Assembly (NCBI RefSeq): GCF_002930645.1
Contig: NZ_PSNW01000006.1
Coordinates: 1-64,000 of the forward strand
DNA: 64,000 nucleotides
Source of the DNA: Solimonas fluminis
GTDB taxonomy: Bacteria; Pseudomonadota; Gammaproteobacteria; Nevskiales; Nevskiaceae
Direction of reading: 5' to 3'
Shown piece by piece: positions 5,228 through 29,143 of the stretch (its first letter is position 1; the number at the start of each line of letters is the position of its first letter). The notes below the pieces were generated by a model. The model saw only the letters and a list, made by a program, of their open reading frames with translations. It was not told the DNA's origin and did not search any database. A program made the position numbers and the translations under genes.

Positions 5228-6257
5228 CATGCAGATCGCACAGATTCGCGAACGGCTGCGACAGGCCGGCGCCGCGCCGATCCACGAGCGGCATGTGCTG
5301 CGCCAGTGGGTGCAGGGAGCGGCGCAGACCCGCAAGCGCAATCCAGAGGACTTCCTGCCGCGCAGCCTTCGCGAGGCGCTCCCGGCGCTGCAGGCCGACC
5401 TGGCCGCCCTGGCGGCGCTGCGCTCGGTCCACCCGAGCGAGGACGGTTCGGAACGCCTGCTGCTCGGGCTGCGCGACGGCCAAACCATCGAGAGCGTGCT
5501 GCTGCCCCGCGAGGGGCTGTGCGTGTCCACCCAGGTGGGCTGCGCGGTGGGTTGCGTCTTCTGCATGACCGGACGCACCGGGCTGATCCGCCAGATCGGC
5601 AGCGCCGAGATCGTGGCCCAGGTGGTGCTCGCGCGCCAGCGCCGGCCGGTCCGGAAGGTGGTGTTCATGGGCATGGGCGAGCCGGCGCACAACCTCGATG
5701 CGGTGCTGGAGGCGATCGAACTGCTCGGCACGGGCGGCGCGATCGGCCACAAGAACCTGGTGTTCTCCACGGTGGGCGATCCGCGCGTGTTCGAGCGCCT
5801 GCCGCGGGGACCGGTGAAGCCCGCGCTGGCGCTGTCGCTGCACACCACCGACGCGGCCCTGCGCGAACAGCTGCTGCCGCGCGCGCCGCGCATGGCGCCG
5901 CAGGAACTGGTGGCCCTGGGCGAGGATTACGCGCGCCGCACCGGCTACCCGATCCAGTACCAGTGGACCCTGCTCGACGGGATCAACGACAGCCCGGCGG
6001 AACTCGACGGCATCGTGCGCCTGCTGCGGGGCCGCTATGCCGTACTCAACCTGATTCCCTACAACGCGGTCGACGATCTGCCCTTCAGGCGCCCGAGCTG
6101 GGAGCGTGCCCGCGCGATCGCGCGCGACCTGCACGGGCGCGGCGTGTTGACCAAGCTGCGCCAGTCGGCTGGCCAGGATGTCGAGGGCGGCTGCGGGCAG
6201 CTGCGCGCGCGTGCCGCGCGCCTCAAGGCAGCGGCCACGCCGCCGCCGCGATCGTGA
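5220..6257 (+). CDS. RlmN-type radical SAM RNA methyltransferase
   Basis: This 345-residue protein carries the radical SAM cluster C-x3-C-x2-C in 'GCAVGCVFCMTG' near residue 105. The SAM-binding 'MGMGEPAHNLD' and the C-terminal 'GQDVEGGCGQL', which holds the methyl-carrying cysteine of RlmN/Cfr enzymes, are also present. Such enzymes methylate C2 of adenosine in 23S rRNA (A2503) and, for RlmN, in some tRNAs. It is shorter at the N-terminus than E. coli RlmN (about 384 residues), so it may be the second, short RlmN-like paralogue found in some gammaproteobacteria. It starts within the stop region of the DMT gene (ATGAGTAG), implying translational coupling. A second Met lies three codons downstream. 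Confidence 0.88.
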   Translation: MSSMQIAQIRERLRQAGAAPIHERHVLRQWVQGAAQTRKRNPEDFLPRSLREALPALQADLAALAALRSVHPSEDGSERLLLGLRDGQTIESVLLPREGLCVSTQVGCAVGCVFCMTGRTGLIRQIGSAEIVAQVVLARQRRPVRKVVFMGMGEPAHNLDAVLEAIELLGTGGAIGHKNLVFSTVGDPRVFERLPRGPVKPALALSLHTTDAALREQLLPRAPRMAPQELVALGEDYARRTGYPIQYQWTLLDGINDSPAELDGIVRLLRGRYAVLNLIPYNAVDDLPFRRPSWERARAIARDLHGRGVLTKLRQSAGQDVEGGCGQLRARAARLKAAATPPPRS

Positions 6258-6334: not shown

Positions 6335-7762
6335 TCAGCCGCCGTGCCGGGAATGGTCCGCCGGCGGCGTGGCCGGCGCCGCCGCGGGTTCCGGGCGCGG
6401 CCCGTAGGGATCGCGCCGCGGCGGGTTGCCGAAATCCGGGTCGCTGGAAACGCGGCGCGCGATCCTGTCCGGCGGATTGCGGTACCAGCCTGGGTCCCGG
6501 TAGTCGCCCGGTGCCTGGTCGTCGCGCACCTTGAGCAGGGTGAACATGCCGCCCATCTCGATCGGGCCGTAGAGCCCTTGCCCGGCCATCATCGGCAACG
6601 TGTTCTCCGGGCCCTTGAGTCCCATGGCGACATGGGCGCCATGCTCGGCCATGCCGTGGCGGCCCATGGCGCCGTAGCCGGGCAATAGCTTGCGGATGTC
6701 GGCTTCGACGCCGCTCTGGTCGACGCCCACCGGGTTGGGGATGCCATGCCCCATCGGGCCCATGGTGTGATGGGCCATGTGGCAATGCAGGGCCCAGTCG
6801 CCGGGCTCGGTGGCGACGAATTCGAGATCGCGGATCTGGCCGACGCCGACGATCTCGGTGACCTCGCGGCGCCACTGGGAGCGAGGCCAGCGTCCGCCGT
6901 CCGAGCCGGTCACCCAGAAGGGATTGCTGTGCAGGTGGATCGGGTGGTTCCACATCGACAGGTTGGCCACGCGGATGCGGGCGCGTTCGCCGGTGCGCAT
7001 CACCAGGTTCTCGATCGCCGGGAAGGTCTTGCTGTTGAACGTCCACAGGTCGAAGTCCTGCATCACGCTGGGATCGGGCCGGTAGGTGCCGGGGTGCAGC
7101 GCCCAGTTGTGCAGCAGGAAGCTGTAGTCACGGTCGATGGGCACGTCCTCGCCCGCCTGGGGATGGATGATGAACATGCCCATCATGCCGAAGGCCATCT
7201 GCGTCATCTCGTCGGCATGCGGGTGGTACATGTGCGAGCCGTGCTGCCTGAGGGTGAACTCGTAGACGTAGGTCTCGCCCGGCTGGATGTGCGGCTGGTT
7301 CAGGCCGCCGACGCCGTCGAAGCCGTTGGGCAGGTCGATGCCGTGCCAGTGCACGGTGGTGGGCTCGCCCAGGCGGTTGGTGACGAAGATGCGCACGCGG
7401 TCGCCCTCCACCGCCTCGAGGGTCGGGCCCGGCGTGGTGCCGTTGTAGCCCCAGCATTTCGCGCGGGAGCCAGGCGCGAATTCGTGCTCGATCTCCTCGG
7501 CCACGAGATGGAACTCCTTCACGCCGCCCTTGAGCGTGTAGGGCAGCGTCCAGCCGTTGAGCGTGCGCACCGGCAGGTAGCCCTGGGGATGGCGCTTGAG
7601 CGTGGCCGGCGCGGGCGCCGGCGCTGCGCGAGGCGGTGCGGCCGCGGCATGATCCATGCCCGCCATGTCGTGTCCTTCGTGCTGGGCGAGGGCCGGCGCG
7701 GCGGCCAGCAGGCCGGCGCCGCCGGCGCCCATCATCTGCAGCAGATCGCGTCGCGTGACCAT
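6335..7762 (-). CDS. Periplasmic multicopper oxidase (copper-resistance type)
   Basis: The product has 475 residues with a Tat-type signal (RRDLLQMMG, then a hydrophobic stretch ending ALA). All copper ligands are visible: HWH 138-140, HPH 180-182, H-x2-H-x-H at 273-278, and the type 1 site HCH-x3-H at 326-332 with a likely axial Met at 337. It would oxidise periplasmic Cu(I) to the less toxic Cu(II) with reduction of O2. A His/Met stretch (HEGHDMAGMDH) follows the signal, and the C-terminus ends in HSRHGG, both plausible extra copper sites. Its start overlaps the stop of the small gene upstream, and it is the last gene of the minus-strand copper unit. Confidence 0.93.
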   Translation of the reverse strand: MVTRRDLLQMMGAGGAGLLAAAPALAQHEGHDMAGMDHAAAAPPRAAPAPAPATLKRHPQGYLPVRTLNGWTLPYTLKGGVKEFHLVAEEIEHEFAPGSRAKCWGYNGTTPGPTLEAVEGDRVRIFVTNRLGEPTTVHWHGIDLPNGFDGVGGLNQPHIQPGETYVYEFTLRQHGSHMYHPHADEMTQMAFGMMGMFIIHPQAGEDVPIDRDYSFLLHNWALHPGTYRPDPSVMQDFDLWTFNSKTFPAIENLVMRTGERARIRVANLSMWNHPIHLHSNPFWVTGSDGGRWPRSQWRREVTEIVGVGQIRDLEFVATEPGDWALHCHMAHHTMGPMGHGIPNPVGVDQSGVEADIRKLLPGYGAMGRHGMAEHGAHVAMGLKGPENTLPMMAGQGLYGPIEMGGMFTLLKVRDDQAPGDYRDPGWYRNPPDRIARRVSSDPDFGNPPRRDPYGPRPEPAAAPATPPADHSRHGG

Positions 7763-17278: not shown

Positions 17279-17977
17279 TTACTTCTTTTTCGGGGCAGCA
17301 GCCTTCGGAGCGGCGGCGGCGGCCTTGGCATCCGGAGCCTTCTGGTTCGCAGCCGGGACTTCGGCGGCGGCAGGGGCGGCGGCGACCTCTTCTTCCTTGG
17401 CGGCGCGCGGCAGATGGATCACGACCACGCTCTGGTCGTTGCCATGCTTCAGCTCGGCCAGGGAGACGCCTTCCGGCAGCTTGATCTGCGACAGGTGCAC
17501 CACGTCGTTCAGTTCCAGGCCCGAGAGGTCGATCTCCAGGAACTCCGGCAGGTCCTTCGGCAGGCACTCGACATCCACCTGGTTGAGGTGATGCTCGACG
17601 ATGCCGCCGCCGATCTTCACGCCCGGGGCCACGTCGGCGCCCTTGAAGTGCAGCGGCACGGCGCGACGCAGGATCTGGTCGGCCAGGATGCGCTGGAAGT
17701 CGATGTGGATCAGGGTCTCGTCGACCGGGTGACGCTGGAGGGCCTTGAGCACCACCTGCTGCGACTGGCCGTCGAGCGTCAGGGTCAGGATGTGCGAGTA
17801 GAAGGCTTCAACCTTCAGGCTCTTCCACATCTCGTTGTGCGAGACGGCGATGCTCTGGGCCTTGTCCTTGCCACCATAGAGGACGGCGGGAACCTTGCCC
17901 TCGCGACGGAGGCGGCGGCTCGCACCTTTGCCTTCGTCCGCGCGGGTTTCGGCGATGACGGTAAAGTTCTGTTTCAT
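17279..17977 (-). CDS. rplY: 50S ribosomal protein L25 (general stress protein Ctc type)
   Basis: From the ATG at 17977 (GAGAGA upstream) the product has 232 residues, the long Ctc form with an N-terminal 5S rRNA-binding domain (residues about 1-95) and a C-terminal beta domain. Typical segments are 'GKGASRRLRREGKVPAVLYGG', 'HPVDETLIHIDFQRI' and the later 'LSGLELNDVVHLSQIKLPEGV'. The C-terminal 45 residues are a low-complexity Ala/Lys/Pro tail. It lies upstream of pth and ychF as usual, but here it is separated from prs by the ECF41 module. Confidence 0.95.
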   Translation of the reverse strand: MKQNFTVIAETRADEGKGASRRLRREGKVPAVLYGGKDKAQSIAVSHNEMWKSLKVEAFYSHILTLTLDGQSQQVVLKALQRHPVDETLIHIDFQRILADQILRRAVPLHFKGADVAPGVKIGGGIVEHHLNQVDVECLPKDLPEFLEIDLSGLELNDVVHLSQIKLPEGVSLAELKHGNDQSVVVIHLPRAAKEEEVAAAPAAAEVPAANQKAPDAKAAAAAPKAAAPKKK

Positions 17978-18064
17978 GGAAATCTCTCGAAAAATCAATG
18001 GGCTTCCGCCCGCGACCAGACGGAAGGGCGCAAATTGTACTGGAACCGGCCCCGCGCCGCGAGT

Positions 18065-18979
18065 TCAGGCCTGCCCGGCGGGCTGCAGCCGGGCCAGTTT
18101 CTCGGGATTGCGCGTCACGTAGACCGCCGCGATGCGGCCGTCGCGGATGTCCAGCGCATAGGTCTGGGCCAGGCGCCCGGCCATGTACAGCAGGATGCCC
18201 GGCATGCCGTTGATGCTGGCCAGCCGCAGGTTCAGGGGGCCGGAGACCAGGCGCCGGGCGATCTTCGGCTTGCGCACCAGCCCGGTCAGGAAGCGCGCGA
18301 TGCGCTCGGCACCCCGCACCGGCTTGAGCGCCGCGGGCACCTTGCCGCCGCCGTCGGAGTAGAACACGGCGTCGTCCGCCAGCACCTGCTTCAGGCCCTC
18401 GATGTCGCCGCCGCCCAGGGCCATCACGAAGGCCTGCGTCAGCCGCGCCGACTCCTCGGCGGAGGGGCGGAAGCGCGGCCGCTCGCGCCGCACCTGGCTG
18501 CGGGCGCGCGAGGCCAGCTGGCGGCAGGCCTCCTCGCTGCGGCGCAGGGTGCGTGCCACCTCGGGGTAGTCCAGGTCGAAGACGTCGTGCATCAGGAAGG
18601 CGGCGCGTTCCAGGGGCGACAGGCGCTCCAGGGTCAGCAGCAGCGCCACCGACAGGTCATCCGCGTACTCGCTGGCGGCGTCCGGCGCCAGGGCCGCGTC
18701 GTCGAGCAGCGGCTCCGGCAGCCAGGGGCCGATGTACTCCTCGCGCTGCAGCCGCGCCGACTTGAGCTGGTCCAGGCACAGCCGCGTCACCGTGCGGGCG
18801 AGAAAGGCGCGCGGCTGCTCCACCGCCGCGCGGTCCGCCGCGTGCCAGCGCAGGTAGGCGTCCTGCACCGCGTCCTCGGCCTCCGCTCGCGAGCCGAGCA
18901 TGCGGTAGGCCAGGCCCAGCAGGGAGCCCCGGTGGGGCTCGAAGCTGGCGGCCGGATCGGGCTGGGCGCTGGCGGACAT
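18065..18979 (-). CDS. ECF41-group RNA polymerase sigma factor with SnoaL-like C-terminal domain
   Basis: The product is 304 residues. Sigma2 (about 15-80, 'LLGLAYRMLGSRAEAEDAVQDAYLRW') and sigma4 (about 115-165, 'LSPLERAAFLMHDVFDLDYPEVA') are followed by a C-terminal domain of about 120 residues. That domain carries the DGGGK motif (near 220) and a terminal NPEKL, the two signatures of the ECF41 regulatory extension. In this group the fused domain replaces an anti-sigma factor and modulates activity. The gene is last in a unit with a CxxC carboxymuconolactone-decarboxylase-like gene, the usual ECF41 partner. An ECF41 promoter lies upstream of the unit, so autoregulation is likely. Confidence 0.93.
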   Translation of the reverse strand: MSASAQPDPAASFEPHRGSLLGLAYRMLGSRAEAEDAVQDAYLRWHAADRAAVEQPRAFLARTVTRLCLDQLKSARLQREEYIGPWLPEPLLDDAALAPDAASEYADDLSVALLLTLERLSPLERAAFLMHDVFDLDYPEVARTLRRSEEACRQLASRARSQVRRERPRFRPSAEESARLTQAFVMALGGGDIEGLKQVLADDAVFYSDGGGKVPAALKPVRGAERIARFLTGLVRKPKIARRLVSGPLNLRLASINGMPGILLYMAGRLAQTYALDIRDGRIAAVYVTRNPEKLARLQPAGQA

Positions 18980-18989
18980 GGCGCGCGGG

Positions 18990-19532
18990 TCAGGCCGTCT
19001 GCGTCACGGCCTGCGGCCGCCCGCCCACTTCCACGCGCAGGCAGGTCTTGCCGTAGCCCAGGGCGTACTTCAGCGTCGGGAAGATGCGTGCCGCCACCAG
19101 GGCGAAGGCGATCGACACCAGCGCGCGCCGGCCCCATCGCTGCAGGACCTGCTCGCGCAGCGGATCGGCCTCCGGGCTGCGGGCCAGCGAGGCCTCGGCG
19201 AAGCGGTAGGCCAGCCGGGCATCGGGCGGCAGCTGCTCCGGCCTGCGGCCGACCACGGCACGCAGGGTTTCGGCCGGCACGCCGGCCTGCTCGGCCATGC
19301 GCACCACCAGTTGCGTGCAGGGACCGCAGTCCTCGTGCAGGCCGCCGACGATCTTGGCGGTGAACCAGGCATCTACCGGGATGTCGCGGTGGTATTTCGC
19401 CAGGGGCATGACCTTGTTGAAGAGCAGCACGGCCTTCAGGTCGGCGGCGAGCAGTTCGCGGGCGTAGGACATGTCGTAATCGTACGCGCGCTCGAACTTC
19501 GAGATCTGGCTGTTGATGAGGGGCTTGATCAT
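18990..19532 (-). CDS. Carboxymuconolactone decarboxylase/AhpD-like protein, ECF41 partner
   Basis: This 180-residue helical protein contains a redox-type CxxC in 'HEDCGPCTQLVVRMAEQAGV', placed as in AhpD-like members of the carboxymuconolactone decarboxylase superfamily. Such genes are the most frequent neighbours and targets of ECF41 sigma factors, often as oxidoreductases of unknown substrate. It is 12 bp downstream of a small membrane protein gene and 10 bp upstream of the sigma gene, so all three are probably one transcript. The C-terminal stretch 'RIFPTLKYALGYGKTC' contains a third cysteine. Confidence 0.85.
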   Translation of the reverse strand: MIKPLINSQISKFERAYDYDMSYARELLAADLKAVLLFNKVMPLAKYHRDIPVDAWFTAKIVGGLHEDCGPCTQLVVRMAEQAGVPAETLRAVVGRRPEQLPPDARLAYRFAEASLARSPEADPLREQVLQRWGRRALVSIAFALVAARIFPTLKYALGYGKTCLRVEVGGRPQAVTQTA

Positions 19533-19544
19533 GGCGGCGGTTCC

Positions 19545-19937
19545 TCAGGCGTAACGGGCGGCGGGGGCGGCCTTGCGCGGCCAGGACAGGGCCAGCGCCG
19601 CCAGGGCGGGGACCACGACCAGCAGGGCGTCATTGAGCAGGTGGCCCGCGGCGACGCGGCCCTGCAGGGCGTCGAAGACATGGATCAGGGCATGCAGCAG
19701 CTGGAACGCGCTGCCGGCGATGGCGGCCGGCCAGGCCTGGGGCCAGCGCAGCAGGGCGAGCAGGCCGGCACCGGAGACGCTGTAGGCGGCACCGATGTCG
19801 CGGATGAAGTGGGGGTTGTAGGGCCCGGTGGCGCTGACGCCGGGCACCGCCGGATACCAGGACGCTGGCGCCAGCAGCATGAACAGGCCGTTGGCCAGCA
19901 GGCCGAGGCCCAGGACGGCCAGGATCGGGTTTCGCAT
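19545..19937 (-). CDS. Small polytopic membrane protein, first gene of the ECF41 unit
   Basis: From the ATG at 19937 (CGGAG upstream) the product has 130 residues and probably four membrane helices. A conserved-looking loop follows the first helix ('YNPHFIRDIGAAYSVSGAGLL'), and 'LLHALIHVFDAL' lies in the third. I do not recognise a named family beyond DoxX-like general architecture. It is the promoter-proximal gene of the module, directly after the ECF41-type promoter, so it is probably the most strongly induced product. Its presence as a third component is not part of the usual two-gene description. Confidence 0.72.
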   Translation of the reverse strand: MRNPILAVLGLGLLANGLFMLLAPASWYPAVPGVSATGPYNPHFIRDIGAAYSVSGAGLLALLRWPQAWPAAIAGSAFQLLHALIHVFDALQGRVAAGHLLNDALLVVVPALAALALSWPRKAAPAARYA

Positions 19938-19972
19938 CGCTCGTGTGCTCCGGTGAGGGGGTTCACGGACAA

Positions 19973-19999
19973 GACGAGCCGGCTGCGCAGGTTGTGACA
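19973..19999 (-). promoter_or_regulatory. ECF41-type promoter (TGTCACA-N16-CGTC)
   Basis: On the minus strand TGTCACA (19999-19993) is followed after exactly 16 bp by CGTC (19976-19973), 36 bp before the first start codon of the unit. This is the known target motif of ECF41 sigma factors, so the unit is predicted to be transcribed by its own last gene product. Confidence 0.88.
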
Positions 20000-20020
20000 T
20001 GACACGGCGTGCCATGCAGC

Positions 20021-20068
20021 AGCCAGCTTGCTGGCGACCGGGTGCGAGAGGTCGCCGGCAAGCTGGCT
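20021..20068. repeat. REP-like palindromic element
   Basis: An 18-bp arm AGCCAGCTTGCTGGCGAC and its reverse complement with one mismatch are separated by 12 bp. A second copy of the same family lies at 29096-29143. Palindromes built on 'GGAGCCAGCTTGCTGGC' are widespread REP elements in pseudomonad and xanthomonad intergenic DNA. Confidence 0.85.
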
Positions 20069-20101
20069 CCTGCATGAATACCCCTGTATCCCCGGAAAGC
20101 A

Positions 20102-20128
20102 GAAAGCCCCTCGCAGGGAGGGGCTTTC
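20102..20128 (-). terminator. Terminator after prs
   Basis: GAAAGCCCCT / AGGGGCTTTC form a 10-bp stem with a 7-nt loop, 19 bp beyond the prs stop codon. The A/T-rich stem ends allow use from the minus strand. Confidence 0.75.
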
Positions 20129-20147: not shown

Positions 20148-21146
20148 TCAATCCACGTACAGCGAGCTCACCGACTCCTCCGCGCTGATGCGGCGGATGG
20201 TCTCGGCCAGCAGGCCGCCGATGGACAGCTGGCGGATCTTGGGGCAGGCCTTGGCGGCGTCGGAGAGGGGGATGGTGTCGGTCACCACCAGCTCGTCCAG
20301 CACCGACTTGCTGATGTTGCTGATCGCCGGGCCCGAGAGTACCGGGTGGGTGATGTAGGCCACCACCTTGATCGCGCCGGCTTCCTTCAGGGCCTCGGCG
20401 GCCTTGCAGAGGGTGCCGGCGGTGTCGGCGAGGTCGTCCACCAGCACGCAGGTGCGGCCGGTGACGTCGCCGATGATGTTCATCACGCGCGATTCGTTGG
20501 GCTTGGGCCGGCGCTTGTCGATGATCGCGAGGTCCGCGTCGTCCAGGCGCTTGGCCACGGCGCGGGCGCGCACCACGCCGCCGACGTCCGGGGCCACCAC
20601 GATCAGGTTCTCGTACTTCTGGCGCCAGATCTCGCCCAGCAGCACGGGGCTGGCGTAGACGTTGTCCACGGCGATGTCGAAGAAGCCCTGGATCTGGTCG
20701 GCGTGGAGGTCCACCGTCAGCACGCGGTTGGCGCCGCACTCGCCGATCATGTCGGCCACCACCTTGGCCGAGATCGGCACGCGCGTGGAGCGCGGGCGGC
20801 GGTCCTGGCGGGCGTAGCCGAAGTAGGGGATCACCGCCGTGATGCGGCCGGCCGAGGCGCGCTTGAGCGCGTCCAGCATCAGCAGCAGCTCCATCACGTT
20901 GTCATTGGTCGGCGCGCAGGTCGGCTGGATCACGAACACGTCCTTGCCGCGCACGTTCTCCTGGATCTCGATCTGGATCTCGCCGTCGGAGAACTGCGAG
21001 ATCACCGCCTGGCCCAGCGGCTGCTTCAGGTAATTGGCAATGTCCTGCGAAAGCTTGGGATTCGCATTACCCGAGAACAGCATCAGCTTGGAGTCGGCCA
21101 TGTAAACGTTCGCCTCTGCGGTGGCGCTGTCGGAATAGGAGTTCAT
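20148..21146 (-). CDS. prs: Ribose-phosphate pyrophosphokinase
   Basis: The 332-residue reading makes PRPP from ribose 5-phosphate and ATP for nucleotide, His and Trp synthesis. '[24 protein letters not shown]', '[12 protein letters not shown]', the metal-binding '[12 protein letters not shown]' and the PRPP loop '[15 protein letters not shown]' are all present. The common last motif is VDDMxDTAGT, so DLADTAGT is a mild variant. A start at the internal Met (21101, [15 protein letters not shown]) would match the usual 315-residue length and may be the true one. It follows tRNA-Gln and ispE on the same strand. Confidence 0.96.
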
Positions 21147-29095: not shown

Positions 29096-29143
29096 AGCCA
29101 GCCTGCTGGCGACCCGCAGGGACCTGTCGCCAGCAAGCTGGCT
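29096..29143. repeat. REP-like palindromic element, second copy
   Basis: Arms AGCCAGCCTGCTGGCGAC and GTCGCCAGCAAGCTGGCT pair with one mismatch around a 12-bp loop. It is the same family as 20021-20068, with identical spacing. Confidence 0.85.

Follow-up and report, generated by a model that had tools for sequence, protein, structure and literature searches.

An ECF41 sigma factor locus of Solimonas fluminis carries a conserved, unannotated pair of a membrane protein and a CMD-like protein that may form a redox unit

ECF41 sigma factors, members of the extracytoplasmic function (ECF) class, are widespread. Wecke et al. (2012; PMC3426412) characterised their promoter motif and their regulation by a C-terminal extension. 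That study knew of no inducing condition and mentions hypothetical genes at some ECF41 loci, so that it may have met single cases of the gene pair described below. A table of mapped promoters of S. meliloti places an ECF41-type promoter before a carboxymuconolactone decarboxylase (CMD) gene (PMC6180224). Here we describe a module at positions 18065-19999 of a 64,000-nt stretch of Solimonas fluminis DNA (the window), consisting of genes for a membrane protein (mem), a CMD-like protein, and an ECF41 sigma factor. By the account of Wecke et al., Ecf41Bli/ydfG and Ecf41Rsp/RSP_0606 resemble this module in sigma factor architecture, in the WLPEP and extension motifs, in the TGTCACA-N16-CGTC promoter, in target genes that precede the sigma gene in the same direction, and in a CxxC motif in the target (PMC3426412); in the window, by contrast, the target is a divergent 180-aa protein with a CMD-type predicted fold and no Pfam match, and mem precedes it. 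The mem/CMD-like pair was not found described in the literature, in a search that left subscription papers largely outside, so that earlier notice is possible.

On balance, the module is probably one ECF41-autoregulated unit that would make a two-part, membrane-bound, AhpD-like redox unit. Sequence comparison supplies five grounds for this reading, namely the order of the genes, their promoter, their conservation, the way the pair alternates with canonical CMD proteins, and gene fusions; it draws further on the predicted AhpD fold of the CMD-like protein and the four predicted helices of mem. Two other systems offer parallels of working and not of descent. The DoxX-SseA-SodA system of M. tuberculosis likewise joins a membrane protein to a thiol-oxidoreductase in oxidant defence (PMC6930017), but mem has no DoxX profile match (P 0.62) and other partners. 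In P. aeruginosa, thiol-reactive oxidants induce RclX, an AhpD-like protein with a CxxC motif, by way of a regulator encoded next to it; that regulator is RclR and not a sigma factor, and the passages on RclX mention no membrane partner (PMC7950407).

The sigma factor is, by its sequence, an ordinary ECF41 factor of the known kind, as the first-pass annotation of the window had proposed. It scored 372.2 bits against the SigJ model NF007214 (cut-off 271), matched PF04542 and PF08281 (regions 2 and 4) above cut-off, and its profile found the SigJ structure 5xe7 in the Protein Data Bank (PDB) at E 3.9e-73 over positions 5-288. The WLPEP, DGGGK, and RNPEKL motifs were legible, and W86, P88, E89, P90, D209-G211, N291, P292, K294, and L295 were invariant in 17 aligned sigma factors; the C-terminal extension, of about 100 residues, scored 24.5 bits against SnoaL_2, below the cut-off of 27. 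The only other sigma match in the genome was partial (E 1.1e-4). Ratios of nonsynonymous to synonymous substitution (Ka/Ks) within the genus, worked out from values computed for its genomes, were 0.24-0.50 for mem, 0.20-0.41 for the CMD-like gene, and 0.06-0.28 for the sigma gene, which supports all three being real genes under selection.

The occurrence of the three genes was surveyed in three sets of genomes or loci. Of the 58 genomes covered in the family, 16 carried the sigma factor, at 17 loci, 11 the CMD-like protein, and 18 mem; the triad occurred in nine genomes, the CMD-like and sigma genes without adjacent mem in two, and the sigma gene without either at six loci in five genomes. A second set, the named loci, comprised the best 80 of 194 mem relatives, obtained with two peptide patterns derived from a profile of nine module and four solo mem sequences; it includes genomes of the window's family and many close species. 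By record title these loci belong to alpha-, beta-, and gammaproteobacteria, Acidobacteria, Myxococcales, and others. Sixty were triads in the window's order (two with mem and the CMD-like protein fused), two held mem and sigma, two held mem and the CMD-like gene (Acidobacteria), and two ended before sigma. The association of mem with ECF41, first suspected from the window alone, was thus found elsewhere, with mem beside an ECF41 gene in 62 of the 80 named loci, and mem is by these comparisons a recurrent ECF41 partner and no local oddity. The third set, a phylum sample of 249 genomes including that of the window, was searched by scoring the best candidates of each genome, so that its counts are lower bounds: mem in at least 14 genomes (15 matches), the CMD-like protein in at least 12, and the sigma factor in at least 37 (49 matches). 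The loci comprised ten triads, one mem-sigma pair, and one mem-CMD fusion, while mem stood by itself in three matches and the CMD-like gene in one. The CMD-like gene was adjacent to mem, or joined to it in a fusion, in 11 of its 12 genomes and accompanied by the sigma gene in 10 of 12. A search of plasmids returned four records with partial matches, all titled 'hypothetical protein'. At L109, an Acidobacteria mem-CMD pair without ECF41, a gene for an ordinary-looking ECF sigma factor was seen by eye in divergent orientation (5283-5981, reverse strand).

A single clade of triad sigma factors had been expected, and the sigma tree did not return it: 11 changes of the triad label were needed, of which the starred branches force at least five. 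The tree covered 105 of 123 rows (after removal of six duplicates and 12 near-identical sequences) and was built by a quick method, and its long branches make the count unsure; the changes suggest that the pair was gained, lost, or exchanged more than once.

In the window, an exact TGTCACA-N16-CGTC lies before the first gene, as had been noted from the sequence alone, with 35 nt from its last base to the ATG of mem. Nowhere else in the assembly of 4.67 Mb does the motif occur (reversed control 0), and dinucleotide-shuffled versions of the window gave a mean of 0.01. The genes follow in the direction from prs to rplY, separated by gaps of 12 and 10 nt. All nine family triads had an exact promoter with the start codon 30-44 nt away. 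The 60 named triads, which overlap with the family triads in several genomes, all carried the motif with at most one mismatch (45 exact, 15 with one mismatch), and the spacer was 16 in every case, 15 and 17 having been permitted. The same tolerance gave a match in one of 16 named loci without sigma and in 10 of 900 random pieces from 15 named loci, some of which may overlap a real site; the two further named loci that end before sigma had an exact promoter. In the family survey, the motif preceded the sigma gene or its operon at 16 of 17 sigma loci, the exception being L069, in which the motif lies where the sigma gene ends, and none was found in four family stretches with mem and without sigma. 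The distance from promoter to sigma gene was 501-545 bp at ten loci with a canonical CMD gene, 943-1,012 bp at nine phylum-sample triads outside the window, and 24-122 bp where the motif directly precedes sigma. Among the phylum-sample sigma loci without mem or the CMD-like gene, 13 of 35 had no ECF41 motif upstream on the sigma strand. These sequence comparisons support a self-directed promoter whose presumed transcript includes the membrane gene. Other arrangements of the motif were also seen: L068 (G006) has two back-to-back motifs, at 6498 (+) and 6466 (-), one of them before sigma and one facing the opposite way; L066 (G056) has motifs at 5356 and 6369 in the coordinates of the reversed locus, the second just past the sigma gene; and at L177 a solo mem with no sigma beside it has an upstream motif with one mismatch and a spacer of 16.

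The ECF41 loci were also read for a canonical CMD gene, which was counted wherever in the sequence covered a profile built from ten of these loci matched. Of the 49 phylum-sample sigma matches 46 were read, the other three being partial. A canonical CMD was present at 33 loci, the mem/CMD-like pair at ten, mem only at one, and neither at two, and at no locus did the canonical CMD and the pair occur together. The canonical CMD was also absent from the 61 labelled mem-sigma loci among the 80 named ones. The ten profile loci are among the 33 and match by construction, and these ten, scanned singly, all gave PF02627; for most triads 2.7-3.4 kb was read, for most loci lacking the pair about 4 kb, and for five loci more. 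Since the two were never found together, it seems that the pair takes the place of the usual ECF41 output, and the comparison suggests that it is an unannotated, conserved variant of that output.

Fusions connect the two members of the pair directly. Single frames matching both the mem and the CMD-like profiles were found at L148 and L162, from Bradyrhizobium metagenome-assembled genomes and each with the promoter and a sigma gene, and at L183. In the family to which L183 belongs (f39, 199 genomes), 21 genomes gave matches, and in ten of these, in six genera, mem and the CMD-like protein were matched over 302-307 residues in one frame with no internal stop, the nine others being 47-99% identical to the query. 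A fusion scan with all three profiles found mem joined to the CMD-like protein and none joined to sigma. Beside the fusion of L200 lies a divergent gene for an Rrf2 regulator (PF02082, 2.1e-29); L197 and L202 hold a frame similar to it. Two proteins that occur stably fused in other organisms usually act together. Going further, we propose, tentatively and at somewhat less than even confidence, that mem and the DCGPC protein constitute an undescribed two-module redox enzyme embedded in the membrane, a second ECF41 output that replaces the canonical CMD and elsewhere forms a single protein located beside another regulator, Rrf2.

The first-pass annotation had suggested that the module may act at or sense the membrane. 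The mem-CMD fusions speak for the first part. The second would make mem a membrane sensor or anti-sigma-like controller of ECF41 and the CMD-like protein its effector, which is the main rival explanation and one we consider unlikely. It would account for the promoter-proximal position of mem, for its frequent place beside sigma in the named loci and the phylum sample, and for three loci (L161, L173, and L184) with mem and sigma but without the CMD-like gene. Sensing for sigma is nevertheless not favoured: the fusions found join mem to the CMD-like protein and not to sigma; the two occur without adjacent ECF41 at L109 and L131 and in fusions; mem is missing from 35 of the 46 ECF41 loci read; and, in the 2012 study, an ECF41 sigma factor was active in a host that lacked ECF41 partners, with its own extension restraining it (PMC3426412).

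Several observations weigh against a joint redox unit. In the phylum sample, mem lay beside the CMD-like gene in 11 of 15 matches and beside sigma in 11 of 15 as well, so that adjacency alone favours neither partner, and it is the fusions that favour the CMD-like protein. The named loci are not independent cases, since many are from Bradyrhizobium or Phenylobacterium, and many of the 60 triads are from close species. No ECF41 motif was present within 1.5 kb of any of the ten f39 fusions. None of the cysteines of mem is invariant, which gives no indication of a thiol relay by way of mem, and the CMD-like protein has no histidine after its CxxC, so that peroxidase chemistry is not assured. Finally, mem stood alone in 14 of the 80 named loci, one of them at the end of its stretch. 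Together with L204, where it adjoins a gene for an NmrA/epimerase-like protein, these loci indicate that mem manages without this CMD, and the two family loci with the CMD-like and sigma genes but no adjacent mem point the same way, to mem and the CMD-like protein as separate stress proteins that are merely co-regulated. We hold this to be improbable, given the full-length fusions in nine further genomes of the f39 family and a CMD-like gene that nearly always sits beside or within a fusion with mem in the phylum sample. At L204, mem overlaps the NAD-binding, NmrA/epimerase-like gene by four bases, and at L184 a gene of this kind is found some 0.5 kb past the mem-sigma pair on the opposite strand; these neighbours recall those ECF41 targets that are epimerases.

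Mem had been described as an unassigned four-helix membrane protein. The AlphaFold2 (AF2) model comprised four long helices with a mean predicted local distance difference test (pLDDT) score of 93.6, and neither Pfam nor NCBIfam contains a model specific to the family. Its signature is TGPxNxHF..DIG plus H82xxxH86, and W27, G38, N41, H43, F44, G49, H82, and H86 were invariant in 68 mem sequences, solo ones included. The loop after helix 1 has zero charged residues and the C-terminal tail three K/R, which suggests that both ends of mem are cytoplasmic, and the CMD domain of the fusions would then be cytoplasmic too. The window protein scored 18.7 bits against DUF4345 (PF14248), a weak match below the cut-off of 26.5; nine of 68 mem relatives matched this model at E<=0.01, and a profile comparison with 22 DUF4345 relatives gave P 3e-4 and a probability of 40 over 129 columns, nearly the full length. 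DUF4345 is thus possibly a distant relative, distinguished from mem by the latter's own set of invariant residues. Comparison by profile with 28 DoxX relatives gave no match (P 0.62); DoxX_2 was weakly matched (E<=0.01) by 4 of 68 mem relatives. Neither mem nor the CMD-like protein of the window scored above a cut-off in the sequence libraries, and among their relatives library matches were few and weak or absent. The mem profile returned a single row from the PDB sequences (E 1.9), and the best Foldseek match of the model, NACHO/TMEM35A (E 0.31), was not significant. Tetraspanins, VKOR, and other bundles reached Z-scores of up to 10.7, a level common among helical bundles, and they were rejected as fold relatives; for this reason no fold is claimed for mem. 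A distant second mem paralogue was observed in the same genome (G000:C34:60148-60522; L024, L187), divergent to a DUF4345 gene, and three other genomes of the genus have such a divergent pair. At L127 (2300-3048), a tandem pair of mem-like genes follows a fabI-looking gene (by eye).

For the CMD-like protein, the label given at first holds at the level of profile and predicted fold, supported by weak PF02627 matches in 12 of 49 relatives (best E 5.8e-5; the other 37 had none at E<=0.01), but no sequence library assigns the window protein itself, which had no match in Pfam or NCBIfam at E<=1. Its profile matched the PDB entry 2gmy (E=0.001). The AF2 model (pLDDT 96.5) gave AhpD as the best PDB row in Foldseek (E 0.014, probability 1.00), and a second comparison of the model with PDB structures gave AhpD 6e8l at Z 14.3 (164 aligned residues, root-mean-square deviation 3.6). 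Among the first 19 structure rows (Z 14.3-5.5; next 3.3), ten were by title AhpD/alkylperoxidase or CMD proteins, four peroxidase-related or antioxidant proteins, two the debrominase Bmp8, and three had no function in the title. An AhpD/CMD-type fold is therefore predicted. In 49 CMD-like sequences, D68, C69, G70, P71, C72, Q74, K155, and C164 were invariant, among others. AhpD has CxxCxxxH, with a histidine four residues after the second cysteine. The ten canonical ECF41 CMD proteins carry this motif, whereas in 11 aligned CMD-like sequences DCGPCxQ takes its place, with no histidine at that position; an 'AhpD-type peroxidase' is for this reason not claimed. The CMD-like protein further differs from AhpD/CMD proteins (PF02627), with which it shares the predicted fold and CxxC, in the additional invariant C164 and K155 and in its membrane partner.

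We considered that a joint redox unit could function as follows. In the absence of a signal, the SnoaL-like extension of the sigma factor would keep the factor in check; once released, possibly by a ligand, it would transcribe from TGTCACA-N16-CGTC the genes for mem, the CMD-like protein, and more sigma factor, presumably as one transcript. Mem would tether the CMD-like protein to the inner face of the membrane, the two unfused proteins forming a physical complex with the CMD domain on the cytoplasmic side, and would probably supply a substrate or cofactor site through the invariant N41, H43, H82, and H86. The CMD-like protein may then use thiol chemistry to reduce a compound, either an oxidant or a reactive electrophile, that enters the membrane or arises there. 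We infer the transcript, the complex, the location, the chemistry, the kind of substrate, and the ligand release from the features described above.

The features of the module and its surroundings are collected in Table 1. The module adjoins rplY in all four genomes of the window's genus, that of the window included, and prs lies on its other side in three of them, the contig of the fourth ending first. In other genera of the family, prs was within 1.5 kb of rplY at 20 of 26 rplY loci read and the module at none. The claim that the module separates prs from rplY therefore applies to the window's genus and not as a wider trait, and the position is best taken as the result of a local insertion, with the prs hairpin on one side and the promoter proper to rplY on the other; it probably says little about function, as it is found in one genus of the family only. 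The hairpin was the single site given by a terminator-type scan (shuffle mean 0.7). An inverted repeat of the repetitive extragenic palindromic (REP) type was confirmed at the outer end of the module; by eye it is present in G050 and absent in G048, and a shorter word match lies at window position 29128. Stress read-through from the ECF41 promoter into rplY-pth-ychF, which would give the insertion a meaning, is suggested by the 66-87 bp between the end of sigma and rplY on the same strand, where the scan found no terminator-like site. We regard it as highly improbable: the module sits at prs-rplY in a single genus, and the rplY leader and TACAAT after the module seem to be kept in three other genus genomes (by eye). 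Before rplY at seven loci of other genera, the words varied by eye between TACAAT, TATAAT, and less similar ones; a sigma-70 scan gave no site in the stretch holding TACAAT. Rfam returned four rows, each under its gathering score.

Table 1 Features of the ECF41 module and its surroundings in the window.
Feature	Coordinates	Strand	Remark
ECF41-type promoter TGTCACA-N16-CGTC, TGTCACAACCTGCGCAGCCGGCTCGTC	19973-19999	-	exact match
mem, 130-aa predicted four-helix membrane protein	19545-19937	-	ATG at 19937
CMD-like protein, 180 aa, AhpD/CMD-type predicted fold	18990-19532	-	EDCGPC
ECF41 (SigJ-type) sigma factor, 304 aa	18065-18979	-	SnoaL-like C-terminal extension
Candidate -10 element TACAAT of rplY's own promoter	18034-18039	-	by eye
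rplY (L25), downstream neighbour outside module	17279-17998	-	likely ATG 17977; PF01386 3.4e-27, PF14693 6.6e-26
prs, upstream neighbour outside module	20148-21146	-	PF13793 5.2e-53
Terminator-like hairpin after prs	20102-20128	-	perfect 11-bp inverted repeat
REP-like inverted repeat between prs hairpin and module promoter	20013-20076	none	27-nt arms, 93% complementary

The pair has largely been hidden from Pfam-based annotation, as mem has no model and most CMD-like relatives have no PF02627 match. It offers a testable second ECF41 output with a putative membrane location, fusions suited to structural work, and a set of invariant residues. If the proposed reading is true, part of the unexplained physiology of ECF41 sigma factors would consist in rendering oxidants or electrophiles harmless at the membrane.

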